This document shows positions 1 to 42,215 of a stretch of DNA of 64,000 bases, one piece after another. The notes under the pieces were generated by a model. The model was not told the DNA's origin. It saw nothing but the letters and a program-made list of their open reading frames with translations, and made no database searches. A program made the translations under genes and the position numbers. The DNA is from Diplosphaera chodatii (taxonomy: Eukaryota; Chlorophyta; Trebouxiophyceae; Prasiolales; Stichococcaceae). Position 1 is the stretch's first letter, and every line of letters begins with the position of its first letter. The stretch is from contig JAALGY010000033.1 of assembly GCA_032358165.1 (NCBI GenBank), positions 3,100,001-3,164,000 on the forward strand, written 5' to 3'.

Positions 1-399
1 AGGGTAGATGGACTTGCCGCCGCGGCCAGACCCTGTCGGGTCACCCCCCTGGATCATGAAGCCTTTGATGTTCCTGCACACAGAGTCGTCGTCGGCATTT
101 AGCTTCCGTCTGCAAGCCGCTGATGATCTGGCGTGGTACTGGTGACATGCAGCTATGCAGGCCTGCACCTGTGGAAGATTGTGCCATCATAGTAGTTGCT
201 GGCGCACAGCGCCAGAAAATTCTCTGCAGCCTTCGGCACCTGCGGACAAAGTGCCAGCCATGTTGACATCCACTATCTTTTTCTCAAAGCGCAGGCAAGG
301 CTTATGAGCGCAGTCAAGCTCCCAGAGCACAGATCTGCACACCGATTCGCAGTAGAGCTCAAGTTTCAGGTCGCCCAGCGTAGTGTGCAGCGTCACTGC
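1..399 (-). CDS. PPIL3: PPIL3-type cyclophilin (peptidyl-prolyl isomerase), partial
   Basis: Single-domain cyclophilin that isomerises prolyl bonds; the PPIL3 subgroup is spliceosome-associated (family knowledge). Read on the minus strand, three exons join in phase: 399-343 ([19 protein letters not shown]), 239-169 ([19 protein letters not shown], then TIFHR) and 73-1 ([19 protein letters not shown]). The run [22 protein letters not shown] is the classic cyclophilin active-site stretch, with the catalytic Arg in FHR. The short VTLHT..GD N-terminus with no leader is typical of PPIL3 rather than of secreted or mitochondrial cyclophilins. The initiator ATG is not resolved: it must lie in a small exon upstream of 399, and a candidate near 455 does not keep phase. 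The 3' half runs off the left edge of the window. Confidence 0.85.
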
Positions 400-25853: not shown

Positions 25854-28800
25854 ATGGCCAGCAAGGCAGCTGACGAGGACTTGGAAGCAGGCCAGCCCGC
25901 TGCAGAGTCATCGGCATCAGCAGCGATCAGCCCAGCGGTGCCAGAGGCGTCCGCACCCAGCGGCAGCAAACCAAGCGGCGGCCTGCGGACTGGCAGCACC
26001 TACTTGTCACAGTTTGAGGCGCGTTACACCTGAAGAGATGTTTTGTGCAATCCACCAGGTGTTGTATGACGGATTCGGTGGGCAATGGGCGTGTACGAGT
26101 GATGGCTCATGAAACCTGCAGGAAGGGGCGCCGTTCAAAGATGGCTGGCGGGAGTTCTTGTCGTCACTGCCGTGGACGTCTTACGTCTTTGTGGTGCTCG
26201 CGTTCATTGACGTGTGCCTGGTTTGGGCGTACTGCGGCTGGTCCGTCAATCGCCCGGGCGGCTCCATTGAGGAGTCCCTACACATCGCACTGGCGCTTGC
26301 GGTGAGATGCTGATGTGCTGCCGCTGTAGTCAGTGTCGTGTGCTGTGCAGGTCCGCATTGCATGTCATCATGAGTGGCGACTGTTGTCAGCCTGAAACGA
26401 CAACTTTGCGGGTTACAGATCACAGCGGCATTCTTCTTCTACTTCGTGGTGGATGGCATCATCACCGAGAACGTCTTCGAGCTGCTGGCAGCGGTGGTGC
26501 TGGATGCGCTGGTGCTGGCGCGCGTGCTGTTCTACGTGATCGCCAAGAAGCGCAAGGAGTTTCCGGGGCGGATAGTGCTGCTGTCGGGCATCACACTCCT
26601 GCAAGTCCTCATTCTGGTGTGCAGACCGCCTCCCTGCCTGCTTGTGCATCATCCATACAGGCCACACCCAGCACGTCCTGGGTGGACGTGTTCATTTGGC
26701 CGCATCAGCTGATACACTGCTGCTGCTGGCCCCGCAGTTCCTGACATGCTGGACCATCCTGCAATTTGGGTGGCGCATATTCAGCCGGCAGGCGGTCGAC
26801 TTTCGGAAGAAGGATGCCAAGGAGCGCATGCGCTTGTACCTGAGCCGCGCCATGTTTCTGACAATCGAGAAGCTCGACTTTCAGTTCCTTGTGAGCTTGC
26901 TCCCGAAAGAGCTGCATCGTCCTCGCAAACAGCTGCTTACGCCCTGCCACCACAGTGACAGAAAGTGACGGTCTTCCGGGCGGCTGAAGCGGTTTACTTC
27001 CTGCAGATCATCATGACCACAGTGGCGATCGTAATCTGGATCAAGAATGCAAACTGTGCCGTCTGCCGGCAGCCGACATGGTTCATCTTGGGGTACAACT
27101 GCGTTCTGTTCGTGGTCAACTTCCTGATTGCGGTGGCGGCATGGTTTGTGCTCAAGTACCCCAAGAAACTGCAGAGGTGAGCCGACTGGCACGGCAAGTG
27201 CGCACGCTGCTCACGGAGTCAGTCTTCATTTCAACTTGCCTATGTTGCGCCACCCCGTTGCGCAGGACGCTCTGGCTGGACTTCCCTTTGATGCCATTTT
27301 CTCTGGTTCAGCCGATTGCTAACATCTGCTGGGAGTTCAAGCGGCACGAAGACATCCAGAATGCCAAGTGAGCTGCCGCTGGCACACATGTAGCAACCAG
27401 TATCAACACTTGCTGACGTTGCACCTGGCGGCTGAGCGCAGGGCACACTGTGCTTTGATTGCTCATTTGCGCTGCAGGGCTTCCATGGCTGTCGTGTGTG
27501 CGCTGTTCATTGTATCAAGGATTGGCCTATGGGCTATGATGCACCTGGTAAGGCACACCTGTGGCGTATGAGAATGTGTTCGTACAATGCAGTCCCCAGA
27601 TGCTGGCCTTTGGTGGCCAGTCACATCGCAGCCCTTCCAACACAGTCTACTGCGGTCTCCAGGTCAAGCACTATGCACAAGTTGTCAAGCGTCTGGACCA
27701 GGGCGAAGCGGGCAACCTCGCAGGTGAGTGCTAGGAGTGGCCCATCATCCCTGCCCATGCCAAGGCTGCATCTTGAAGGACGGTCCGAGGCACAGCAGTG
27801 CACAGGCAGAACACCAGGAGCTCGGTGTCCCATGCAGAGAAGGATCGCAGTGTGCTGCCCCTCGTCCGGGGCGCATGGCTGGGCAAGCCATCGAAGCGGA
27901 AGCCCTTCAAGCGCCGCTTCTTCCAGTTGTCAGCTGATGGCGCCTCGCTTCGGTGGTGGGCCTGCCTGTCGTTTTGGCTGCCACTCTCTTCGACATTGGC
28001 TGGACTGCACAAGCGCTGCCCTGGCACGCCTGGCACTGGCAACATCCCTTCAGCCGCAGAGGCGAGACCATCAGCTCATGTCCTGCTGCAGGTCCTGGCG
28101 CAAGTATGTGCGCCTGTTCTACCTCGAGTCGATGGACGTCAACCGCCGGGAGCTGACGCTGACGCTGCGCTTCCTGACGGATCCCGACCTCACGCTGAAG
28201 TTTCCCAACAAAACAAAGTGGGTGCCAACGCTGAAGTTTCCCAACAAAACAAAGTGGGTGCCAATCTTGCTGCCGACTGCAGGGTTTGCCCTGCTCTAGA
28301 TGTGATCCCACGCAGGAGACAAATCTCATGTATGCATGAGAAAGTTGAAGGCAACAGGCAACAGGCATGGTAGCAGGGTGGCAGTAGCAGACAGGGTACG
28401 CCGTCGGCATCAGTCCTTCACATGGCCCGCCTGCACAAGCCATGCATGCTCAGATGACTGACTCGGCACGGCGCTGCAGGTTCGTGGCGTGGCAGCAGGG
28501 CCTGGAGGCGCTGGTGGGCAGCCTGATGAGCCCCGGGGCAGCGGGCGCGGGGCCCAAGGGGCCCAACCTCGCGCGCCCCAGCTCCTTTGGCGGCCCGGCC
28601 GCGGCGGCCGAGGACCGCCGCGCCAACCGCAGCTTCCTGTCGGACATGCTGGGCATCAAGATCCGCGACCGCAGCCCCAGCGGCACGACCACAGCGCAGA
28701 CACGTGAGCTGCACGGCTGTCGCCTCCAGCTGCTGGCTGTCCATGCACTTGACCGAGAAGACTACTCGGGCTGCATCCTGCAAGCATGCTGCCTGCAACG

Positions 28801-31712
28801 CACCTGCAACGCACTACCTGACAACAGATACACGGGTAATCAATGAACTACTCCAGATGCGACAACGGACATGTCCTCAGGTCGTCATCGCCAATGGGAA
28901 GAGGTTGCCAAGCTCGCCTGAACGCCGTTTCTGTGCAGGCGACATCGAGGCTGCGCTGCCGCCGGCCAAGGAGGGGCTCGAGCTGCCGCCTCCGCCGCCG
29001 CGGTCACCCAGGCGGCCGGCGCTGGACGACCTGTCTTCAACGGATGAAGATGAGGACGTGGCGCCCGCTGCGCCGCTCAGGAGCGTGCTCACACAGGTGC
29101 AATGCAGCACGAGGCGCATTTCTGCGCCTGCTGCCTGCTGCAGCGTTTGTACCCCCATGTGCTTTGCTGCAGTGTACGTTGCTGCCTGCACGCCTCACCA
29201 CGTTTGTCGGCTGGCTGACCAGGAGGAGAGGAAGGTGGAGAAGAACGTGTCGTTCGACCCCAACAAGCTGTTCGATGATGCCTTCTTTGCGCCAGGTGAC
29301 CAGCAATCATGCAGCACCTGCTTGCCCACCATTCCACAAGATCTTCTCTGCATGCATCAGCTCCTGTCTGCTGCCTAGTGTGCCAGCTCATGTCCCCACA
29401 ACGTGATAGCCTGCTGCAGAGGGCGGCGTGAACCTAAAGCGCCTGTCGAGCAAGAAGCCCAGTGGCCTGTTCTCGCTGCCGTCGGGCGTACGCGGCGGTG
29501 TGTTGGAGGCCGTGGCCTACGAGGACCTGGAGTTTGGCAAGCTGCTTGGTGCGTGGTATGCTGATCATCGATCGCAGCAGCCCACGCATATCCGTTCGAC
29601 GCTGAATGCTGGGACGTTCAAACCCATTTGCACGCTTATTGATGCAAGGTGTTGGCTGCCGCCAGGGCCTGGGCACATGGCGCAACCAGCCCTTCCTCGG
29701 TCGTGTCACCTTGGGTGCACTTGCAGGGGCGGGTGCGGAAGGCGAGGTGTATGCTGCCTGGTGGCGGGAGAGCATGGTTGCCGTCAAGCGGTTCAACAAG
29801 GCATCGGACTCGATCCACGAGCTGCGCATGCACACCGCCGTGGGCACAGCCGGCAACGACGACTGCATCATCCCGCTGCGTGGCTACTGCCGTCGCGACA
29901 ATGCCGTGTATCTTGTGATGGAGTACTGCCCCAGGTGCACCGTGCGGTGGTGATAGTACTGAATCTGTGCAAGCACCAGTTTGACCAGCAGATGCACGTG
30001 CAGCTGACATACCCCTGACATGATGAGCCCAAGCTGCAGGGGTACGCTGGATGTGCTGATCCACAACACGTCCAGCCGCGCCTGGGGCATGGACAAGCTG
30101 CTGCCGATGGTGCGCTCCACAGCGCAGGTGAGCGGCAGGCGCCACCGCAGGACTGCAGCGTGCCCATATGCTCATGTCCTCCTTCTGCAGAGCGTTCCTT
30201 GCATCAAACAACGAAAGTCAGTCAACAAGTGTATCCGCGGCCAGCAGCATGAACGTCTTATGCGCATGCTGTCCCGAGTCAAGGTTTCAGAGGGACCTGG
30301 ATGTGCATCACGTGCAGGGGGTGCGGATGCTGCATGCACGGGGGCGGCCGGTGCTGCACCGCGACCTGAAGCCAGGCAACGTCTTTGTCGGCACCGGCCA
30401 GCTGCTCAAGGTCGGCGACTTCGGCATGTCGCGCTACGTCGACCTGACACCGGCAGCAGGTGTGCTGGGGCATACCCTCCCAATAAGTGCCTGCTGCACC
30501 CTGGCATGCTGTTGCTGCGGAGGGCACTGGCACATTGATCAGCGGTCATGTGCAGGGGAACCTGCAGTGTCTGCTGTCTGCACCCCTGCATCTGCAAATC
30601 GGAGCTGCTCTCTGGGCTCCATGACCATACACAATGCTACATCACGGTATGTGATGCTACCTCCACTGTGCATCAGATTGGCTACCATTCATGATACAAT
30701 GCTGTCGGTTGTGCGCAGAGGGCGGGCCGCCGCAGCTGGCGCGGCTGACGCCCAATGTGATCGGCACTGCGCAATATGCTGCGCCAGAGCTCATGAACGA
30801 GGATTTGCTGGAGACCATGAAGCCCGACCAACGGTATCTGCAGGTTTGTTGTCAAGGGCTGCTCCCCTGCAGAAACGCGCAGCAGTTGGAGTGTGTTACT
30901 CGTCGCACTCCATCACGTAGACCCAGCTGCCTGCCGACACTGCTTGCTGGCAGTCGCCAAAGCTACACATCTGCCTGCAGGCGGACGTCTACTCGTTTGG
31001 GGTGACGCTGTGGGAGCTGCTGGAGCGCAAGCGGCCGTACAAGGGCATGGACCCCTACCAGATCCAGGTCTGCCCCCTGTCCGGCTGCAAGTTTCACAGA
31101 GGGCACATCCCATCTGCAACGTGATTGTATACGGGTTCTGGTGGCGCTGTCAACTTCCTGCACCTTCAACAGCTCCAAGTCTGGACAAGGGCTTTCTCAG
31201 TGATCGTTGCAAGGCGGTTTTCGGCATGATCTCATGAGGTCTCGCTGAGCTCGCAGACGATGAGCATCATCAACCCCGAGGAGCTGAGGCTGCCGGCGCC
31301 CAAGGTGCCCGACTCCATGAAGGACGGCGCCTCCCGCGCCGCCTTCACGGCGCTTGCGGCCCTGGTGGATACCTGCTGCACCACCACCGCCAGCGAGCGC
31401 CCCACCATGGAGTGCGTTTCATTGCAGCCTACTGCCAGTCTCAACCTGCAATGTCAGCACCTTCAGGGCAGCAGAGCCAGCTGCTTCCAGTCCAGCGAGG
31501 GGCTCATGCTGGGATGTGCCTCATGTAGCAACGCTGGTCATGTGTGCTCGAGTGCTGCGCATGCCGACCACACTTCAACCCTACGCCTCAGCAGGACATT
31601 GCAGCGGCGCGACAGCATAGAATCTGACATTGAGCTGTGTTGCCACAGGGAGGTGTACACCATCATCTGCCAGATTGAGCTGCAGTACAAATCAGCGCAG
31701 GAGGACGCCTGA
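25854..31712 (+). CDS. Seven-pass membrane - PH - TKL protein kinase, copy A
   Basis: Predicted membrane signalling kinase of 946 aa. Twenty-one exons keep phase throughout: 25854-26018, 26122-26301, 26419-26616, 26738-26890, 26962-27176, 27266-27367, 27478-27547, 27663-27723, 27838-27955, 28092-28217, 28480-28703, 28939-29096, 29223-29295, 29420-29548, 29727-29934, 30040-30127, 30318-30459, 30719-30843, 30981-31067, 31257-31411 and 31649-31712. About seven hydrophobic segments span residues 70-365 (SYVFVVLAFIDVCLVWAY; AAFFFYFVVDGII; YFLQIIMTTVAIVIWI; VLFVVNFLIAVAAWFVL). A PH-like domain covers about 385-475 (RGAWLGKPSK, RRFFQLSADGASLRW). A disordered Pro/Ser/acidic linker follows. The kinase (about 647-940) has GAGAEGEV, Lys678, HRDLKPGN (Asp772), DFG (Asp790) and APE, and looks catalytically competent. 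Paralogue of 33506-42215. Ligand and substrate unknown. Confidence 0.85.
28192..28263 (+). repeat. Two-copy 36-bp tandem repeat containing a splice donor
   Basis: The unit beginning ACGCTGAAG and ending GGGTGCCA occurs twice in a row, the second copy starting at 28228. Each copy carries AA|GTGGGT, the donor that ends the PH exon. The period is 12 codons, so using the second donor would add 12 in-frame residues. Confidence 0.9.
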
Positions 31713-32254
31713 CATAGATGGTTGACCACCTCTGGGCGGATGGCATCTTTTGCAGCTGCTGCTCGGCGTGGCGGCGACAGCACGCACCATTTGTTGACTG
31801 GAACAACAATGGCAGAGCAATGCACATGGCAGACTGCAGAGGGTTTGTTTGCAGCGCTTTGAGCTGGCCGTGCACCACCTGATAACTGGGCCTTGGATGC
31901 AGCGTTTCTGCTGCATCGGCACGATCACTAATTGGGTTTCATCTCAGTGTACAGTCGAGAGCATGCTTGCATACGGCAAGCTGGCGCCAGGGGTTGTGCT
32001 TAGCGGGTCCCGCCGCCTCTGAATATCACTTGTTGGTTCACATATTGGCTGCGCATCATTGCGTTAGAATAGCCATCAGGCACTTATATCGCATGCGCAG
32101 GCGCAAGTTGGGTCTTCAGGCAGCCTTCAAGACGTCCATCCTGAGGTCTCAGCCAGGCTGTCACTGTCACTGTCACTGTTGACTTCTTGATCAGCTGCCC
32201 TGCGACTTCCATATGCCAGCCCGAAGGCGCACCTGAAGTGCGACACGGGAGTGC
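31713..32254. other. Intergenic region
   Basis: 3' flank of receptor kinase A and 5' flank of the second lipocalin/FABP-like gene. Apart from a short TGTCAC repeat at 32159, nothing is evident. Confidence 0.35.
32159..32179. repeat. Short TGTCAC microsatellite
   Basis: Just over three perfect copies of the hexamer TGTCAC, about 75-95 bases upstream of the intronless gene. Confidence 0.8.
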
Positions 32255-32959
32255 ATGCTGACATTGCACGTACACACCGACGCCGCTCCGATCCGATATC
32301 CAGCACCGGCCAGCATGCCTGATACTTCCGAAAAGCTTGCTCAAACTTCCAGCGGCACTCTGCTTTCATGGTGGCCGTGGGGTTCTGGCAACTCCAAGGC
32401 ATCGCAACCAGACAGCACCAACGTGGGAAAGCAAGAACCGTCGAGTGAATCAGGACCCACAGCAGCGGCAGCCGACAGCAAAGATGCATCTCAGAGCGGT
32501 GACGGGGTCTCAGACTTCAACGGGCAATGGGAGAAGGACACAGCAGCCTCAGACATGGACGCATACGCAAAGCAAGTGGAGATGTTGCACATGTCCAGCG
32601 TTCAGACCTACGCCGCCCTCCACTTCATGTGGGGCCTGAACATCAAATCCGATGATCAAGGTTTCACGCTGAGGTTTTTGGTCAAGAGGGTGCCGGCGTT
32701 CGTGTTCAGGGAGGTGGAGCATTACACATATGATCAGCAGACCAGCATGGGGCGGCGCGACCGGCGCTCCGGGCAGCAGACCGGCGACCTGTCGCACGTG
32801 GATGGTGGCGTGCAGGTGGACATCAAGTGGGGCGACCCGTACGCAGCGCACACACGGGAGGTGTACACCCTGCAGTCGCCGCGGGTCATGCACCTCGACT
32901 CCACGGTGACTGTGGGCGACCAGACCGTCTCCGGCGTGCAGGTGTACAATAAGAAGTAG
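32255..32959 (+). CDS. Lipocalin/FABP-like beta-barrel protein, intronless, copy 2
   Basis: Uninterrupted frame of 234 aa (214 aa if the second ATG at 32315 is used). A low-complexity N-terminal part (Ser/Gln/Ala-rich) precedes a domain of about 140 residues that parallels the gene at 14553-15398: FNGQWEKDTAASDMDAYAK, then GFTLRFLVKRVPAF, MGRRDRRSGQQTG, VQVDIKWGDP, REVYTLQ and the closing VQVYNKK. The strand pattern suggests a fatty-acid-binding-protein-like barrel able to hold a lipid; this is inference. It sits between the facing 3' ends of the two receptor kinases. Lack of introns in an intron-rich region suggests retroposition or an old intronless family. Confidence 0.65.
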   Translation: MLTLHVHTDAAPIRYPAPASMPDTSEKLAQTSSGTLLSWWPWGSGNSKASQPDSTNVGKQEPSSESGPTAAAADSKDASQSGDGVSDFNGQWEKDTAASDMDAYAKQVEMLHMSSVQTYAALHFMWGLNIKSDDQGFTLRFLVKRVPAFVFREVEHYTYDQQTSMGRRDRRSGQQTGDLSHVDGGVQVDIKWGDPYAAHTREVYTLQSPRVMHLDSTVTVGDQTVSGVQVYNKK

Positions 32960-33505
32960 TGTTGCAGGCACTGCAGAGTTGGCAGATGTGGTTGCTGCTT
33001 CCCCATGCTATACAGATTGCCTAACAGTGCGTGTGCACCAGATCTAGCCGTTTGTTACATGGGCACCCACGACAACGTCGTTGTTGTCGGCATAGCACTG
33101 TACTGTGGACATGTTTATTCCTTGCGAGCCTTGCAGAGTTTGTTGTGTGCACAGCAATGACGCTGCTGTTCAAATCCTGAGGTATTGAAACGGCAACAAA
33201 CCAAGGCAAAGTATCCCAAACCTGCACAAGTTTGACAGTTGGATGCCAACCCGGCATATGCACACAGCTACACATAGTTCCTGCATACAGCAATGTAAGA
33301 GGCGCACAACATTGGGTAATGGCCATGACTCGGCTCTCTCTCACGCTCTCGTCTCTCGAACTCATTACTCAGTGCTTGGAGCTAATGTCAATCATGCCGC
33401 CCCTCCAGCAGCAGCCAGTGTAAACCGGTTTGCACCCCGGCCCAGCAGCAGCAGGAGCTGCTGCCATCCCTCCTGGTGACCTCAAAACACCAGGCCCGAC
33501 GTTCG
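32960..33505. other. Intergenic region between convergent genes
   Basis: 3' flanks of the lipocalin-like gene (+) and receptor kinase B (-). No gene seen. Confidence 0.35.
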
Positions 33506-36500
33506 CTATCGCCCCAGGTGCGACACGGAGCCCTGCCGCGAGTGCGACACCGAGTGCGACGCCTCCGACACGCGCTCCAGGTCGGGCACCGCCGCCCTGC
33601 TGAAGCTGCCCTTGCGGCTGCGCAGGCAGGCACACATTTGAGCGGCACAGGACCCTGTTGACCATCTTTACATCGTCAATCGTCCCCTGACAGATCAAAA
33701 TGCGCAGGCAGCCACTTTACTCAGCTGAGATGGCGCCACGGCGTGCTGTGGGCCCCTGCAGAGGCGCTGCTGACAGGCGCGCCTGCCTGCAAACCCGCTG
33801 ACGCATGCAACACTGCAGGGTGGGGAGCGCACGAGTGGCCGCGCAGGAGCTGCGCGACGCCGCCGCGCGGGGGCGTCTGCCCCAGCAGCGCGCCCGCAAT
33901 GCGGTTGGGGGACGCCTCCGCCAGCGTCGGCCGCGCCGCCGCCGCCGCCGAGAACGTGCTCCAAATTTGGTCCATTGTCTGCACATTTCGGCACAGCAGG
34001 CTCCGTCGGGCAGGCTACAGTGGGTTTGCTGCGGTGAGCGCTGCTGGTAGCGTGCACCGGGCGCAACGCGGGCCTGTTCGCAAGTCGCTGCACCAAAGCA
34101 AGCAGCATCCCAGTGGCGGGTGAGCTCCATGCGGGCGGCGGCTGTGCACCTGGAGGATGGCGGCGAAGGACGGCCGGTGGTCCGGGCTGAAGGCCGTGCA
34201 CTGCACCACCAGGTCCGCCAGGCCGCGGATGGCCGCCTGCAGGCAGCACGTCACGTGTTGGCTGGACACGGTGCAAGGGACGGGAAACGGCTGCAGGGAA
34301 GTGGCTGCTCAGTGCTGGCACGGCACGCGGTGCCATAGCCTGGAAGCAAGCGGGCGGGGAGGCGCCGGGCCCCACCTTCTCGTGGGGCAGCATGTCCTCG
34401 GGGATGCGCACCGGCGGCAGCACCAGCTCCTCCGGGTTCAGCAGCACCATGCCCTGCGGCGGCGCCAAACGGGTGTGGGACAGTGCGCACCCACTGCTGA
34501 TGAGCAGTGCGGCACGCATGCTGGTGCGTGCTGCTGTGTGCAGAGGGCCCACATCTGCGATCAGGGCTGCGGCGGCTCACGCAGCCGCACCTGGATCTGG
34601 AAGGCGTGCAGGTCGCCGTGGGGCCGCTGCTTCATCAGCATCTCCCACAGCGTCACACCAAACGCGTACACGTCGATCTTCAGGTGGCGCATGCCCGACT
34701 CGTCCTCCGGCACGCCCTCCTGTGACAGTGTGACAGCGCGTTGGCAGTCGAGCAGCCTCATCTGATAGCTTGGCACCTCCGGTGACACAAGTAACAAGCC
34801 TTCAGCTCATGGCGCCGGTTCCTGTCTGTCAGGGCCGCGGATGCTTGCCACCAGTGGGTGCAGCCTTTGGGCTGACGTGCTCCGGCCCAACAGCAGCGCA
34901 CCAGCAGCTCGTCGTTGAGCATCTCGGGCGAGGCGTAGTGCGCGGTGCCGATGATGTCGACGGTGAGGTTGCGGTTCAGGGTGCGGCGCCCGGTGGCCGT
35001 GGCCACGCTGTCCGCGCCCACAAAGCGCGACATGCCGAAGTCTCCGATCTTGATCGTCTGCAGGAAGTGCATCGCAGGCATCGCACAATGCTTCTCAGCA
35101 CGACTCAGATGCCTCATGTAGCATGCAACAGCAACTCTTTCAAACAGCGCCGCCACAGTAAACTCTCGCCGACTCATGATGGCGGCCCGGCACCAGCACA
35201 GCCTGACGTGTCTGGAGTCATCACGCGATTGACGACCGTGCCCATGGCCGGGCCCGCGCCGCACCTGGTTGACGCCCACAAACAGGTTGCCGGGCTTGAT
35301 GTCGCGGTGCAGGATGGGCGGGGAGCGCGTGTGCAGGTACTGCACCCCGCTCGCGATGGAGCGGATGATGAGCAGCAGCTTGGCGGTGTCCCACCGCTTG
35401 GCCGCCGTGTGGTGCAGCATCACCTCCATTGTGCCGCGCGGGAAGAACTCCTGCGGCCAGCACAGTGTGGCTGGAGTCGGATGGCAGCAAGCTACACCAC
35501 AGCGTCGTCATCGGCGATACTGACGGCCTGCCATGGGCAGCGCCGGCTGCCGAGGTGAGCTGCCAGAATGGTGTACATCCAAACATAACAACAGCGGTAA
35601 GTGCAACCGCAGCCGGGGGTCACAAGTCCTACAGCAACGCAGCTCACCATGACCATATACAGCGCGGCGTCATGCTGGCAGAGTGCACGCAGCTCCACAA
35701 CATTTGTGTGCTGTCCCGCGCACAGGTGCATTTGCACCTGCACATACGGGCCAACAGCAGTCGAGCAGGCAGGGCATGACACTGCAGGCGTGCTAAGTGC
35801 AACGCACTCCAACCCCCCGACAGCAGATGCTGTCGATGAATCCTCCAGGAAGGCCTGCTGACAGCAGGACGACAGGCAGACGCGCCTCGTGCACCGCGTC
35901 TGCGGCCCGAGCAAACTTCTTCACGGCCACCGGCTTGCCGCGCCACCACGCCGCGTACACCTCGCCCTGCGCTCCCGCACCTGCACGCGCGGCGCACCAC
36001 GCTGGTCTGGCAGTGCGATAGCTCATAAGCATTGAAGCCCATGTATTCCCTGAAAGCTGCGGCACTGCAGCAGGGCTTGCAGCGGCCGCACGACTGTCGG
36101 CTGAGTGGACCCTGGGGCAGCCGCATCAGATGCACACTCACCCAGCCGCCGGCCAAAGCGCAGATCCTCCCGGTCGATGATGTCCACCCAGATGGAGTGC
36201 AGCACCGAGTCGACGGTGGGCGAGGGCGCCGTGCCCGGGGTGGACACCACGCCGGGGCTCGCGCCGTCGCCGTTCTGCTGCAGCTGCCCCGCACCGCTGG
36301 GCGTGGAGATGGGCGGCGGGTGCGCCACCTGCGGAGTGGAGCTCGGCGCTTGGAGACACCAGGACATCCACTTCCTGAAACCTCCCTTTTGACCCATGAC
36401 ATTACAACGCTGTCGAATAACCGGCGTTGGATGCTCAACAGCCGTGCCTATGTAAGGCCAGCACTGCAGGATGCCCAATACTCCCAACAGCACACAGCTG

Positions 36501-39500
36501 CTGGAAAAGCAGGGAGCCCCTGGGCTGCTTGCCAGGGCGCGGAGGTGAACAACATACAGCAGGTGCCCCAGCGACCCACCTGCTCCACGACGGGCTTGCC
36601 GGACTGCAGCAGCGCCCACATGTCGGTGATGGAGCGGCTGATGGGGGCCTCCCCGGGGGCCAGGGGGCGTGCCTCCGGCACCGGCGTTGCCCCCAGCGCC
36701 CCGCCCGCAGAGGGGTGCGGCGTCTTCGGCGCCACGTTCTCCTGGTCGGCTGCACCGGCCCCCGCGGCAGCGTTGCGCTGCAGCCCCAGGCACGGCACAT
36801 CAGTGTCCTTGCTTGTGTCTCAGGTGGTGAAATGCTCGGGCTGTGCCCAGCACAGGCGGGACATTCTGAGAGCACAGCACAGGATGGCTGCCCATGTGTA
36901 GCTCATGGTACTGCAGCATCAGCATGCTGAAATCGACACGCAGACACGGCCAGCATGGCTGCCAGCAACCGCACGCAGGCCGCCGACCTCACCGCGGTGA
37001 TCTGCGCCCACACGGAGGAGGCGGTGGTGGCGAGGGGCGCGGGGCTGGCGTCGGGGCTGCCGGGGCGGGGGGCGGCCTCCGCGGCGGCGCGGCTCTGGAT
37101 GCGCGCCCACACCATGCTGGGCGTCTCCAGGTCCGGCCGGCTGAGCGCCTGCCGGATCACGCCCAAGGCTCAGCACGGAGACGCCACGAAGTTGCAAGCA
37201 GAAGTCAGTGCCGGACGCGGACAGCTTGCCATGCTGCTTCCTAAGTGCACACTCTTGCAGAACACGCAGGTAGGACAGGGCTGTGCAGGGCACTGGGACC
37301 TTGCCTGCGGGCTGTCTGGGGCTGCGGCTGGGGCGGGCGGCGGCCGCTGCCGGCCGCGCCCCGGCTTTGCTGCCGACGACGGCAGCTGGGCAATCTCGTC
37401 CAGCTGCCTCGCCTCCGCCGCCGCCGCCTCCGGCGTCTTGTGGCCTGCAACCTCGTTGCGGGCTGATCAGCCATCAAGCAAGGGCTGCTACAGAGCCAAA
37501 CATGAGCCCGGTGTTTGTCCTCACAAAGTGTGCACAGTCACCGCTGCGCAAAATGCCGCAGCCAAGGTGCACGCCTGCATTCAGGACCCCACCATTGGGC
37601 ATGCCCTGGATGTCTGTGAAGGGCGGCGCCATGGACTCGGGGGGCGGCGCCACCGCCCGACGCAGCGCATCCAGGTAGTGCGCCATCTGCATCCGCCGCA
37701 CCCGCTGCAGCCGGTCCACCCGCACCTGCAGCAACAGCACGGCAGCACTCAGCTACCGAGATGCCCAAGGACCACGGCTGCGGGATGCAGGACAGGTGGC
37801 AGTGGCCCCCTCAATAGTCATGGTCAGTGCACGGCCAGTGGTTGGTACTTCGTCAGCGCTCACCTCTGTACGGGGGCTGAGAGGTGTGGCTGGCGCATCG
37901 CCGGTCTGCCCCCGCCAAAACTGCCAGCGGCTGTCTACCTTTGGGCTGCGCTTGGCGCCGTCTGTGCAATAGCAGTGGGCGTGCGTGAGCACTGTTGTGC
38001 CTCCCCGCAGCTAAGGTGTGTGCGATTGGCTTTGCCACCACTGCACTTGCACATGAGGACACACAAGGCCAGCTTTCCTGCGAAGCGGATCACACCTGAG
38101 GAGCGGTTGCGGCCCGGGGCATTGCTGCCACCCATGCGTGTGAACGTCACGCCCAGCGACTGCAGCACACGGGACCGTGTGCCACACCGCGCTGTGCCTG
38201 GAATGTCCATTTTGCTGCCAGACCTGCATGTGACACGGCACGGTGAAAGGTGCTCGATCAGCCCACAGCTGGACCTCCAACAGAGCCGCTTAACTGCACA
38301 GACTGACAGATTTGCACAATCCTGATCGTTCACCTTGCCCTCATCAAAGCCAGGGTAGCAGAGCAAAACTGCGGTGTACATGTCATCGTCTGGTTGTGCA
38401 GTCATCTTGATTGTTATCGAAGGCAGTGAGGGGGGCGCACTCGGTGCGGATCATGCCGCCGGAGCCACCGCCGTCGCGCAGCAGGGATCCGGGCGTCTCA
38501 GGGCCCATGCCCCCCGGCCCCATCAGCATGCTCAGCGCCCGCTCCAGGCCCAGCGACCACACCTGGAACCTGCGCAGCGGGCAGGCATGTGCATTCAGTT
38601 GGTGCTGCAACACAGCCGATGCAAATGTGATCAGTTGGCAGCTGGGCAGGCGTGTGGGGCAGCCAACATGATACCATCAGGTTCCACGAAGATGCTCACT
38701 GGCCACGGTCGGCAAACTGCAGGCGCAGGTCGCGGTCGACCGTCATGGTGATGGTGATCGTCAGTGCAGAGTCATTGCAGACGATCTCGTCCACATAGTA
38801 CAACCGGACGAACTTGTTCCACGACCTGCAAAGATTGGAGAGGTAGGTTGACACACCACCAGTCCCAGTTGCCGCCATCCTGCAATATGCTACAGTTCTG
38901 TCTTGTCATCAACGGGCACGTGACAGGTACGCTCACCAGCGCAGTGTGGAGCCATCAGCTGACAGCTGGAAGAAACACCGCTTGCGCGGGGACGCGTGAC
39001 TGGGCTTGCCCAGCCAGGCACCCCGCAACAGCGGCAGCAGCTCCTCGTGCAGATCTGCACGAACACCGATGGCACCATTACTAGGTGTAACGACCTCAAG
39101 CTTCAAAGACGGCGCAGATGCAGCTCTCAGAGTGTGGATCAGCAGCGACGGCTCGCGCACGGCAGCACATGGTTGGCAACCAAAACATAGGAGCCGCAGG
39201 GAGCAGCAGGGAGACGCACGGGCATTTTGGCGCAACAGGTCGGCATCGTCATCGGTGGCCCCCGCCAGGCCATCCAGCTTCTTGATGCGCCACAGAATGT
39301 AGTGCATGCAGATCCATACCTACAGGTGTGCAGGGTGGCATGTGAGCACTCTGTCCAGTCTACATCGAAGCTTGCAGCACTCAGCTGTTACTATGCCAGC
39401 ATTAAGAACAATGTGCATGCACACCGCGGCACGGCTGAAGATGAGGAGCGGTGCTGACACGATGAGGCTGTCCCAGTAGGAGGCGTTCCATTTCTCCCAG

Positions 39501-42215
39501 CCGTTGGATGTGACCAAAGCAAGTGTGAGCGCCGGCTGCAGAAAGCTGATGGGCATGAGGATGTCCACGAGCGGGTACAGCCTGCAGGGAAGGCTTGCCA
39601 GGTGAGCACCCAACCAGTGTCTACTCAATATTAAAATGCTGTGATGCTTGCAGCTCTAAAGCAGTCTGGTTACAAAAAACGGAATTGATACAGATGGACA
39701 AAGCCATACGTGCGGAAGGTGCGGTGGCGGACAACGGTCCAGGCGCCCCAGCCAATGATGAGGTTTGTGAACAGCCCCGTGAGGTTGATGGCCAGCAGCC
39801 GCTCCGCCTGGGGCATGTTGCTCTGGTGCGCCTTGGCCAGTGCGATGGCCACCGCCGTAAGTGAGATCTGCGGCACGGGGCAAGCAGCATGATGGGCCCC
39901 AGCAGCCTTGCGGGTGCTGCACTGCCAGCACCTTCCATGCCAGAGCCAGATTCTTCCACCGCATACGCAGTCAGGCCTGTGCCAGTTTCAGCTGGACTGC
40001 TAGGCATGCAGGGAACAGATGGGACGGGCCAGACCTCCCACATGACGTCGAACTTGATCAGCGTCACAAACACCGCCTGCGCGGAGTACACGTGCCGCCG
40101 CTCCAGGGCACCCTTGCGGCGGAAGTCCACACCCAGCCTGCTGTGCAGGCGCCACCCAAAGTCCCTCCAGGTCAGCAGAGCCAACACCTGCAGCATGCAC
40201 CCGTGTTTGGTCGTCACCTTGTCTGGGCGAACAAGAGCATCGAGGAAGAGCAACAGGAGCATGTTGGGCACCATTCAACGAGCGTGGCCAGGTGCATGCA
40301 GAAATTTCAAGGAGGAGCGGTAAGGAGAACTCGAGGCTCTCACAATGGTGACGGCGTGCATGATGAGGATGAACCAGCCGACGGCCTGGCCCTTGAAGTT
40401 GAGCGTCTCCTTGCCGACGGAGTTGGACACGATGCGGGCGGCAGAGATGGCCAGCGCCAACAGCATGCTGGCAAACAACTGCGTCGTGTTCTCCAGCAGC
40501 ACAGCGTCCCACACGAGGTATGTCAGGAACACGCCCGTGATCTGCAACCAGTTGCCGACCATGATACTCAGGTAAACTCACAACCCACGTCATCATGCCA
40601 AGCTCACAAGCAGCAGCAGGCAGATATCCTGCAGCGAGTTTGCAATGTGAACGAATGCGCTCACCAACAGCGGGAAGATGAACTGCTGCTGTGTGCCGGT
40701 GACAAGCACGGTGGTGGCGTAGATGACGATGAACACCGCCTCCAGCAGCACCCACACCAACAGCACACGCGCGCACCGCGGCAGGCTTTGCCAGACATCC
40801 CGGAAGCTGACAAATGGATTCTGGTTCTGCACACAGTTGGGGCAGCACTGTCTGTCAGTGGCAGCAGCACTAGCCTGCTGTGATGCACATGAGCAGCAAG
40901 ATCTGGTGTGCACAGCTGAGGTGCAGACTCACTGCAGCTGCACAGCTCCAGCACAGAGCCATGCTGCAGCCAAAACGAACGAAAAGGAATGCGCTTATGG
41001 ACTTTTGTAACTGCGCACCCATTTGAAGACGTGAGGCCCAGCCTTGCCACCAGATGCTGCCTGGTAGGCGGGGCCACCCACATGGGGGATGCGCAGCCCG
41101 AGCGCATTGCCAATCAGCCCCGGCAGGCTGCTGGTCTTGGTCTGGCCTGCGTAAGCATTCTCTGGGTCCACGTCGCCATACGCCGAGCCCCGGCGGCTAG
41201 TGGCTGGGTCCAGATCGCCAGAGCCCTGCATGTCCAGCGTTGCCGTTCGCTCACGCTGATCGTGTCACAAGCCCCAAGACTATGCACGGGGACATGTGGC
41301 ACTCGCGCTACTCTCGCGTTCTCAAGGGCAGCAAGCACACACCAGCCTGCAGAGCCGCATCCTCACCTGCTCGCTGATGTGGCGCACCAGCGACCCGGAG
41401 CGGCCCAGCGCCTGCGGGTCGCTGCGCTGCCGCTGAAGGTCGCTCAGCTCCCTGGCGGCACTGCCGTCACGACTAAGGCTGGAGCCGCGACTGATGCTCC
41501 CATTGAGAGCGGCCGCTGGCAGCGGCTCCGGCTGCTGCGGCGGCTGCGCTCCGCCGTTCACGACCCTCTCGCCGCCTGTCTCAGGGTCCAGCGCCTCCCA
41601 TGTGCTGCGTCTCGAGTTGCGCAGGCCAGCCAGGAATGGAGCGGTGTGGCGGCGCGGCTGATCGTCTGTGCGGGCATGCACAGAGGCTGACGGTGCTGCT
41701 GGCTGCACCATCCTTGCCGGCTGTGCAGCCGCAGCACTGGGCTGATGTGGCACTGCCAGCGAGCTGCTTTCCTCACGCTGCCGCCGCTGAACGTCCCGAT
41801 AAACCTATGGTGCACAGGTACAGGAGTCCCACATGAGCAGGCATGACTTGCCAGGCGTAGCTTCATGTCCTGCAGGGTGTCATGCCTTGCGGCTCACCTG
41901 CTGCGATGCCAGCTCGCGCTGGTGCCAGGACAGCTGCCGCGGCAGCAGTGACTGTGGCGTGCCGGCGCCAGGGCGGCTGTTTGGATGACTGCTGCCATCG
42001 GGGCTGCCGCCGGAGCCGCGTGGGGTGCGGGTGTGCGGGTTGGGCAGCGGCAGGTCCGAGGTGTCGCCCCAGCCTGAGGACGTGCGCCAAGGGCCGGGCC
42101 CAAGCAGGTTGGCTGTGGGCGTGTCGCCGGGCGTGTCTGTAGGCGCTGCAGACGAGCCATTGGACGGCTGGTGCTGTAGGCTCAGGGGTGCAGAGCCCCA
42201 GGCTGGGCTCACCAT
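33506..42215 (-). CDS. Seven-pass membrane - PH - TKL protein kinase, copy B
   Basis: Paralogue of copy A with a long Ser/Pro/Gln-rich N-terminus; about 1,440 aa. Main exons: 42215-41898, 41786-41367, 41225-41019, 40826-40665, 40541-40344, 40187-40035, 39867-39710, 39581-39410, 39319-39220, 39054-38937, 38825-38700, 38569-38441 (end uncertain), 38159-38096, 37961-37864, 37725-37593, 37444-37305, 37148-36993, 36777-36580, 36328-36142, 35980-35874, 35737-35648, 35450-35265, 35057-34902, 34719-34591, 34453-34376, 34236-34150, 33978-33833 and 33617-33506. Membrane segments include LLVWVLLEAVFIVIYATTV and LFTNLIIGWGAWTVV. The PH-like part is RGAWLGKPSH and CFFQLSADGSTLRW. The kinase shows GAGAQGEV, VAVKKF, HRDIKPGN, DFGMSR and SPE, then an Arg/Ser-rich tail. 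The junction near 38.2-38.5 kb is unresolved. ATG 42215 overlaps a possible donor, so the start may lie upstream. Confidence 0.8.

Follow-up and report, generated by a model that had tools for sequence, protein, structure and literature searches.

A stretch of 64,000 nucleotides of the green alga Diplosphaera chodatii (contig JAALGY010000033.1, positions 3,100,001 to 3,164,000; the window, C27:3100001-3164000 in a genome assembly of 85.6 Mb and 55 contigs) holds two genes, A (+) and B (-), which face each other and in which a multi-pass membrane module, a PH-like domain and a tyrosine kinase-like (TKL) kinase appear to follow one another on a single chain. The locus therefore raises the question of whether this module order is genuine and, if so, what kind of protein it describes. 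We find that the order is genuine and conserved, and that it forms a receptor-like kinase architecture which appears not to have been described before, a variant of the fusions that join a multi-pass membrane part to a TKL kinase. The best explanation is that A and B are inverted paralogues coding for multi-pass, membrane-embedded, receptor-like Ser/Thr kinases with a DUF7789 sensor, and for this explanation as a whole we estimate a joint probability of roughly 0.55.

Both genes were modelled manually, guided by splice signals and by the mutual similarity of A and B (Table 1). Each runs from ATG to stop at exactly the ends first proposed, and every junction preserves the phase. The single open phase described in the original prediction is thus recovered after splicing, over 21 exons in A and 28 in B, and does not hold as an unspliced reading. 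Donors in gene A are GT in 19 of 20 introns and GC in intron 1 (position 26018), while gene B has GC donors at two of its 27 introns, at 35886 (GT in a second copy on contig C26, described below) and at 37305 (GC in both copies). An end of gene B exon 25 at 34340, with a GC donor, was rejected because the C26 copy keeps only 34376, with a GT donor. A perfect 36-bp tandem duplication (28192..28264, +) spans the exon 10 donor of gene A and yields two possible in-frame donors; the model uses the first, in agreement with the intronless C26 copy, and use of the second would add 12 in-frame residues to the PH-like domain. By blastp, A and B are 33% identical over the membrane and PH-like parts plus some of the N-terminus (7e-60), and 40% identical over the kinase plus part of the linker (2e-83). 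The membrane and PH-like match scored 205 bits, where 100 shuffles of the residues never gave more than 25 bits, and exon lengths of 198, 153, 118 and 126 nucleotides recur at equivalent places in these parts of both genes. The trees bearing on the order of the A/B duplication are unrooted, with support around B ranging from 49 to 96.

Both genes are highly split and were modelled without transcripts, a situation in which neighbouring membrane-protein and kinase genes could have been fused in error. The original prediction had argued against such a fusion, and a collinear second copy of the region (window 12093-43792 versus C26:1027212-1056694, about 30 kb compared) bears this out. On C26, the copy of gene A (P0004) contains zero introns, and a single stop-free frame of 940 amino acids holds all four modules. 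The 21 exons of gene A match the DNA of this copy in order, abutting within a few bases, and the sole gap between the aligned proteins covers five residues in exon 1, so that the intronless copy checks 20 of 20 junctions of the model, including that of the GC-donor intron 1. One gene A mRNA, as the intronless copy records, once joined all modules. Since the order is also kept by both paralogues and by orthologues from several genera, we regard a fusion artefact as extremely improbable. Gene A exons are mostly 84-96% identical between C26 and the window, and the long blocks elsewhere are about 77-83% identical. Whole-genome searches gave two places with DUF7789 and 18 with the membrane and PH-like parts of gene A; beyond A, B and one C26 copy of each, neither query had a further genomic match in these exon-wise searches, which divergent split genes could escape.

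Comparison of the copies also revealed how the modules have been conserved. Of 926 aligned residues, 884 are identical between gene A and its C26 copy (dN 0.021, dS 0.319, dN/dS 0.067, the ratio of nonsynonymous to synonymous substitution rates). By part, dN/dS was 0.22 for the N-terminus, 0.032 for the membrane module, 0 for the PH-like domain (dS 0.31, zero amino-acid changes), 0.18 for the linker and 0.065 for the kinase; the membrane and PH-like parts are hence more constrained than the kinase. Purifying selection acts on all three of these gene A parts and is strongest on the membrane module and the PH-like domain. For gene B, the corresponding values were 0.137 (N-terminus), 0.027 (membrane module) and 0.048 (PH-like exons), these being the three parts compared. 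In exon 22 of the gene B copy on C26 (matching window 35450-35265), one extra base stands immediately ahead of the HRD motif; this copy may be a broken kinase gene or reflect an assembly error.

To place the genes among other algae, we relied on three protein searches, which scored 7995, 7997 and 7999 candidates (limit about 8000) and returned 3, 8 and 5 proteins. The full module order is present in eight proteins: A, B, P0004, P0001 (Myrmecia bisecta), P0005 and P0006 (two Trebouxia), P0008 (Symbiochloris irregularis) and P0007, whose label Picsp_1 we take to stand for Picochlorum; P0005 ends within the kinase C-lobe. All named relatives are trebouxiophytes, the genus Picochlorum being placed in the Trebouxiophyceae, and the module order is thus conserved across several trebouxiophyte genera. 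The remaining matches comprise three predicted proteins from metagenomes, in which the initial helices and some of the kinase are missing (P0002, P0003, P0009), six short sequences of 115-271 amino acids (P0010-P0015), and P0016, a protein of 452 amino acids in which DUF7789 stands alone with its DAI..EN, FG and KLDxQ motifs kept and in which a Pfam scan gave no PH or kinase match. None of 30 pattern matches in viral contigs and none of five in prokaryote genomes was confirmed as a relative; phage records gave 24 matches, and the best 5 of the 24 match the kinase part only.

The membrane module, which had at first not been recognised, corresponds to the Pfam family DUF7789 (PF25044, curated cut-off 25 bits). 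It lies just above the cut-off in gene A (25.2 bits) and its C26 copy (25.1), and above it in three orthologues (P0005, 30.7; P0006, 31.6; P0008, 27.3) and in the stand-alone P0016. A profile comparison of the module with P0016 (hhalign) gave 95% probability and an E-value of 2.3e-8 over 154 columns. The FG and KLD columns (F, G, K, L and D) are invariant in a 12-row alignment that includes P0016 and the fragments, and the invariant residues of a ten-row alignment include an R in helix 3, FGWR and D-R in the loop between helices 4 and 5, the K and D of helix 5, and an R in helix 8. We found no paper on DUF7789 in the literature searched.

About seven hydrophobic segments had been proposed for each gene, which agrees with the seven hydropathy peaks of A and not with the eight of B, nor with two AlphaFold models of the Trebouxia orthologue P0006, in which we read eight membrane helices, with short helices ahead of the first and helix 7 broken in two. 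In the second of these models (predicted template modelling score, pTM, 0.61) the predicted local distance difference test score (pLDDT) is mostly 70-89 across the membrane helices. Of the interhelix loops, the one joining helices 4 and 5 is the richest in Lys/Arg in 8 of 8 sequences, though it is also the longest; if it lies inside, four more helices would leave the PH-like domain and kinase in the cytosol, as any even number of passes would and seven would not. The module is predicted to form two bundles of four helices each, connected by this basic, cytosolic loop with the invariant FGWR, with K-L-D predicted at the start of helix 5 and both protein ends predicted to be cytosolic. With lax thresholds, Pfam matched DUF7789 as two stretches in P0006, P0008 and P0016.

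These features bear on a further explanation, namely that A and B are green-algal members of the class of G-protein-coupled receptor (GPCR)-TKL proteins, or GPCR-bigrams, of oomycetes, Amoebozoa and acanthoecid choanoflagellates. GPCR-TKL fusions are described from oomycetes and Amoebozoa by a study that reports 'no evidence' of them in other groups (PMC5784254), and, as GPCR-TKL/K, from acanthoecid choanoflagellates, kinase fusions occurring also in early-branching metazoans (PMC12716839, a 2025 survey whose proteome list includes Chlorella variabilis and Coccomyxa). The Phytophthora kinome likewise includes transmembrane TKLs, its kinases having one to nine predicted passes (PMC3019232). A and B resemble the GPCR-TKL proteins in combining an N-terminal multi-pass domain with a C-terminal TKL kinase (PMC6033456, PMC5784254, PMC12716839). 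They differ in having a DUF7789 module with eight predicted helices instead of a seven-transmembrane (7TM) GPCR, and in a PH-like domain between membrane part and kinase, with no DEP domain found. Pfam scans of A, B and the orthologues gave no GPCR family. Fold searches returned no significant match (Foldseek, 0 of 524 at E <= 0.001 for the P0006 model), a result that is neutral as to a GPCR fold. Membership of this class is improbable. In the literature searched, judged mostly by title and the start of the abstract and with most subscription papers outside its scope, neither the architecture nor its module order, which had been called unfamiliar at the outset, was found.

Directly after the membrane module, the PH-like domain shows a mean column identity of 63% over ten rows and a W in its last helix. 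A profile search of PDB with this domain gave just two matches at E <= 10, both of them ELMO1 PH sequences (3a98, 2vsz), mainly covering the second half of the domain; Pfam PH_12 is presumably this ELMO1 type. The P0006 model has strands followed by a helix (390-408), with the first strands at pLDDT < 50 and the part barely covered by the fold searches. Like ELMO1 PH, the domain has a basic beta1-beta2 loop, in which K11 and K19 are present in all 10 rows and R21 is present in 9 of them, matching the K-x(n)-K-x-R pattern of phosphoinositide binders. ELMO1 itself has neither a membrane part nor a kinase. These signals are weak and consistent, so that the PH assignment made at the outset is kept as probable, of ELMO type; contact with lipid is likewise probable, with acidic phospholipid preferred over phosphoinositide. 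PH_12 searched genome-wide gave two weak matches, neither of them within genes A and B.

At the C-terminal end, the kinase was readily identified by Pfam (Pkinase/PK_Tyr_Ser-Thr, E-values from 6.9e-35 to 9.7e-38 in A and B; Pkinase 5.5e-37 in A). Among the best 60 of 2174 PDB matches, one EGFR entry came first, followed by Arabidopsis CTR1 (3ppz), B-Raf and MLT, in agreement with the TKL group named in the original prediction. All of the motifs listed there (RGAWLGKP..FFQLSADG..LRW, GxGxxGxV, VAVK, HRD, DFG, (A/S)PE) are present. The catalytic Lys, alpha-C Glu, HRD and DFG are all found in 8 of 8 kinases of sufficient length (A, its copy, B, P0001 and P0005-P0008), a count from which the kinases of P0002, P0003 and P0009, cut short or interrupted, were left out. 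As HRD[LI]KP[GA]N is the Ser/Thr form of the catalytic loop, the kinase is predicted to be a Raf/CTR1-like Ser/Thr enzyme of the TKL group. CTR1 and Raf, of the same group, are separate proteins without membrane helices, CTR1 acting at multi-pass ethylene receptors; A and B differ in carrying the presumed sensor and the kinase on one chain.

Taken together, sensing, lipid contact and kinase output are the steps that we infer for A and B. The conserved charged residues of helix 3 (R), helix 5 (K and D) and helix 8 (R) would allow the DUF7789 module to sense a small molecule, a lipid or the state of the membrane, and the change would be relayed through helix 8 to the adjoining PH-like domain. 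This domain may rest on acidic lipid of the inner leaflet via its basic first loop and so position or restrain the kinase, tethered by a disordered linker. Once activated, the kinase might phosphorylate its own linker and downstream targets. The same layout could also serve an endomembrane transporter or scaffold, with DUF7789 placing the TKL kinase at one organelle without sensing and other proteins regulating it. The occurrence of DUF7789 alone in P0016 implies a kinase-independent job for the module, and the fold searches brought up, as the nearest matches, helical bundles of a generic kind, including some four-helix membrane proteins, with nothing pointing to a receptor (VIA-align of the second model gave mostly such bundles, none significant, a run with the first model covering the kinase only; in PDB, the membrane and PH-like parts had no sequence relative at E <= 1). 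The strong constraint on the membrane module (dN/dS about 0.03, below that of the gene A kinase) nevertheless argues against a mere anchor, and, together with the invariance of charged residues within or close to the membrane, fits specific binding or coupling better. We consider a transporter or scaffold less likely, and prefer the DUF7789 sensor kinase.

Several observations weigh against this preference. DUF7789 falls below the cut-off in B (8.2 bits) and in Myrmecia P0001 (16.5 bits) and is not listed for P0007. The first full-length model of P0006 is poor (pTM 0.34) and was used for the helix count only. The positive-inside rule gives a mixed picture, the inside being richer in P0006, P0007, P0008 and B and about equal to the outside in P0001 and P0005, with the density reversed in A and its copy (for A, 18/104 inside and 9/39 outside). 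An internal duplication of the membrane module is unsupported, as half against half gave 0.8% in hhalign. PH_12 was listed in 7 of 13 PH-bearing proteins scanned, in all cases below the curated cut-off of 27 bits (best 16.8 bits, E-values 0.0097-0.11), and the ELMO1 match is weak (E about 0.5).

Table 1 Predicted features of genes A and B in the window (positions from its first letter; aa, amino acids).
Feature	Position	Strand	Exons	Extent in protein	Remarks
Gene A	25854..31712	+	21	931 aa	Membrane module, PH-like domain, linker, TKL kinase; junctions match the intronless C26 copy
Gene A membrane module, DUF7789-type	26122..27723	+	2-8	aa ~66-350	Eight predicted helices, projected from the orthologue models
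Gene A PH-like domain	27838..28560	+	9 to first part of 11	aa ~368-465	Exon 11 holds the end of this domain and the start of the linker
Gene A linker	28480..29295	+	11-13		Pro/Ser-containing, taken as disordered; low confidence in the orthologue model
Gene A TKL-type Ser/Thr kinase	29420..31712	+	14-21	Pfam match aa 636-915	
Gene B	33506..42215	-	28	1460 aa	Order as in gene A; N-terminus and linker longer
Gene B membrane module	39220..40826	-	4-9		
Gene B PH-like domain	38441..39054	-	10-12	aa ~631-735	
Gene B long linker	36142..38223	-	13-19		Exon 19 also starts the kinase
Gene B TKL kinase and short tail	33506..36328	-	19-28		

Between A and B lies an open reading frame of 240 codons, stop to stop (32237-32959, +), which is matched on C26 and for which a Pfam scan gave zero matches at E <= 1. 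It is uninterrupted in the window, and on C26 it contains four intervening stretches with splice-like ends. Two neighbours have thus lost introns in opposite copies, gene A on C26 (all 20, in place) and this reading frame in the window, a pattern that fits cDNA-mediated gene conversion. Elsewhere in the genome, several kinase matches occur in pairs with equal or nearly equal scores, the two members lying on different contigs. Together with the collinear copy on C26, these pairs suggest that the assembly combines two diverged sets of chromosomes, such as those of a hybrid or allodiploid.

Receptor kinases of the plant lineage are typically single-pass. Proteins that fuse a 7TM domain with a protein kinase have been reported from oomycetes, Amoebozoa, choanoflagellates and early-branching metazoans, and according to these papers other eukaryotes did not yield them. 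A multi-pass kinase fusion is now seen in green algae as well, with a membrane part unlike the 7TM fusions of other lineages. Whether these proteins form a new receptor-kinase class, so far of trebouxiophyte green algae including lichen photobionts and with a non-GPCR, eight-helix DUF7789 sensor, is a tentative proposal, to which we give somewhat less than even odds. Being present in Trebouxia, they are candidates for sensors of lichen algae. This does not imply a role specific to lichens, since they are also found in Myrmecia bisecta and Symbiochloris irregularis, which are listed as non-symbiotic algae. The fused kinase offers a read-out for the DUF7789 membrane family and, if the proposal is true, this would be a first function for DUF7789, as a sensing domain that can be assayed through the kinase on the same chain.

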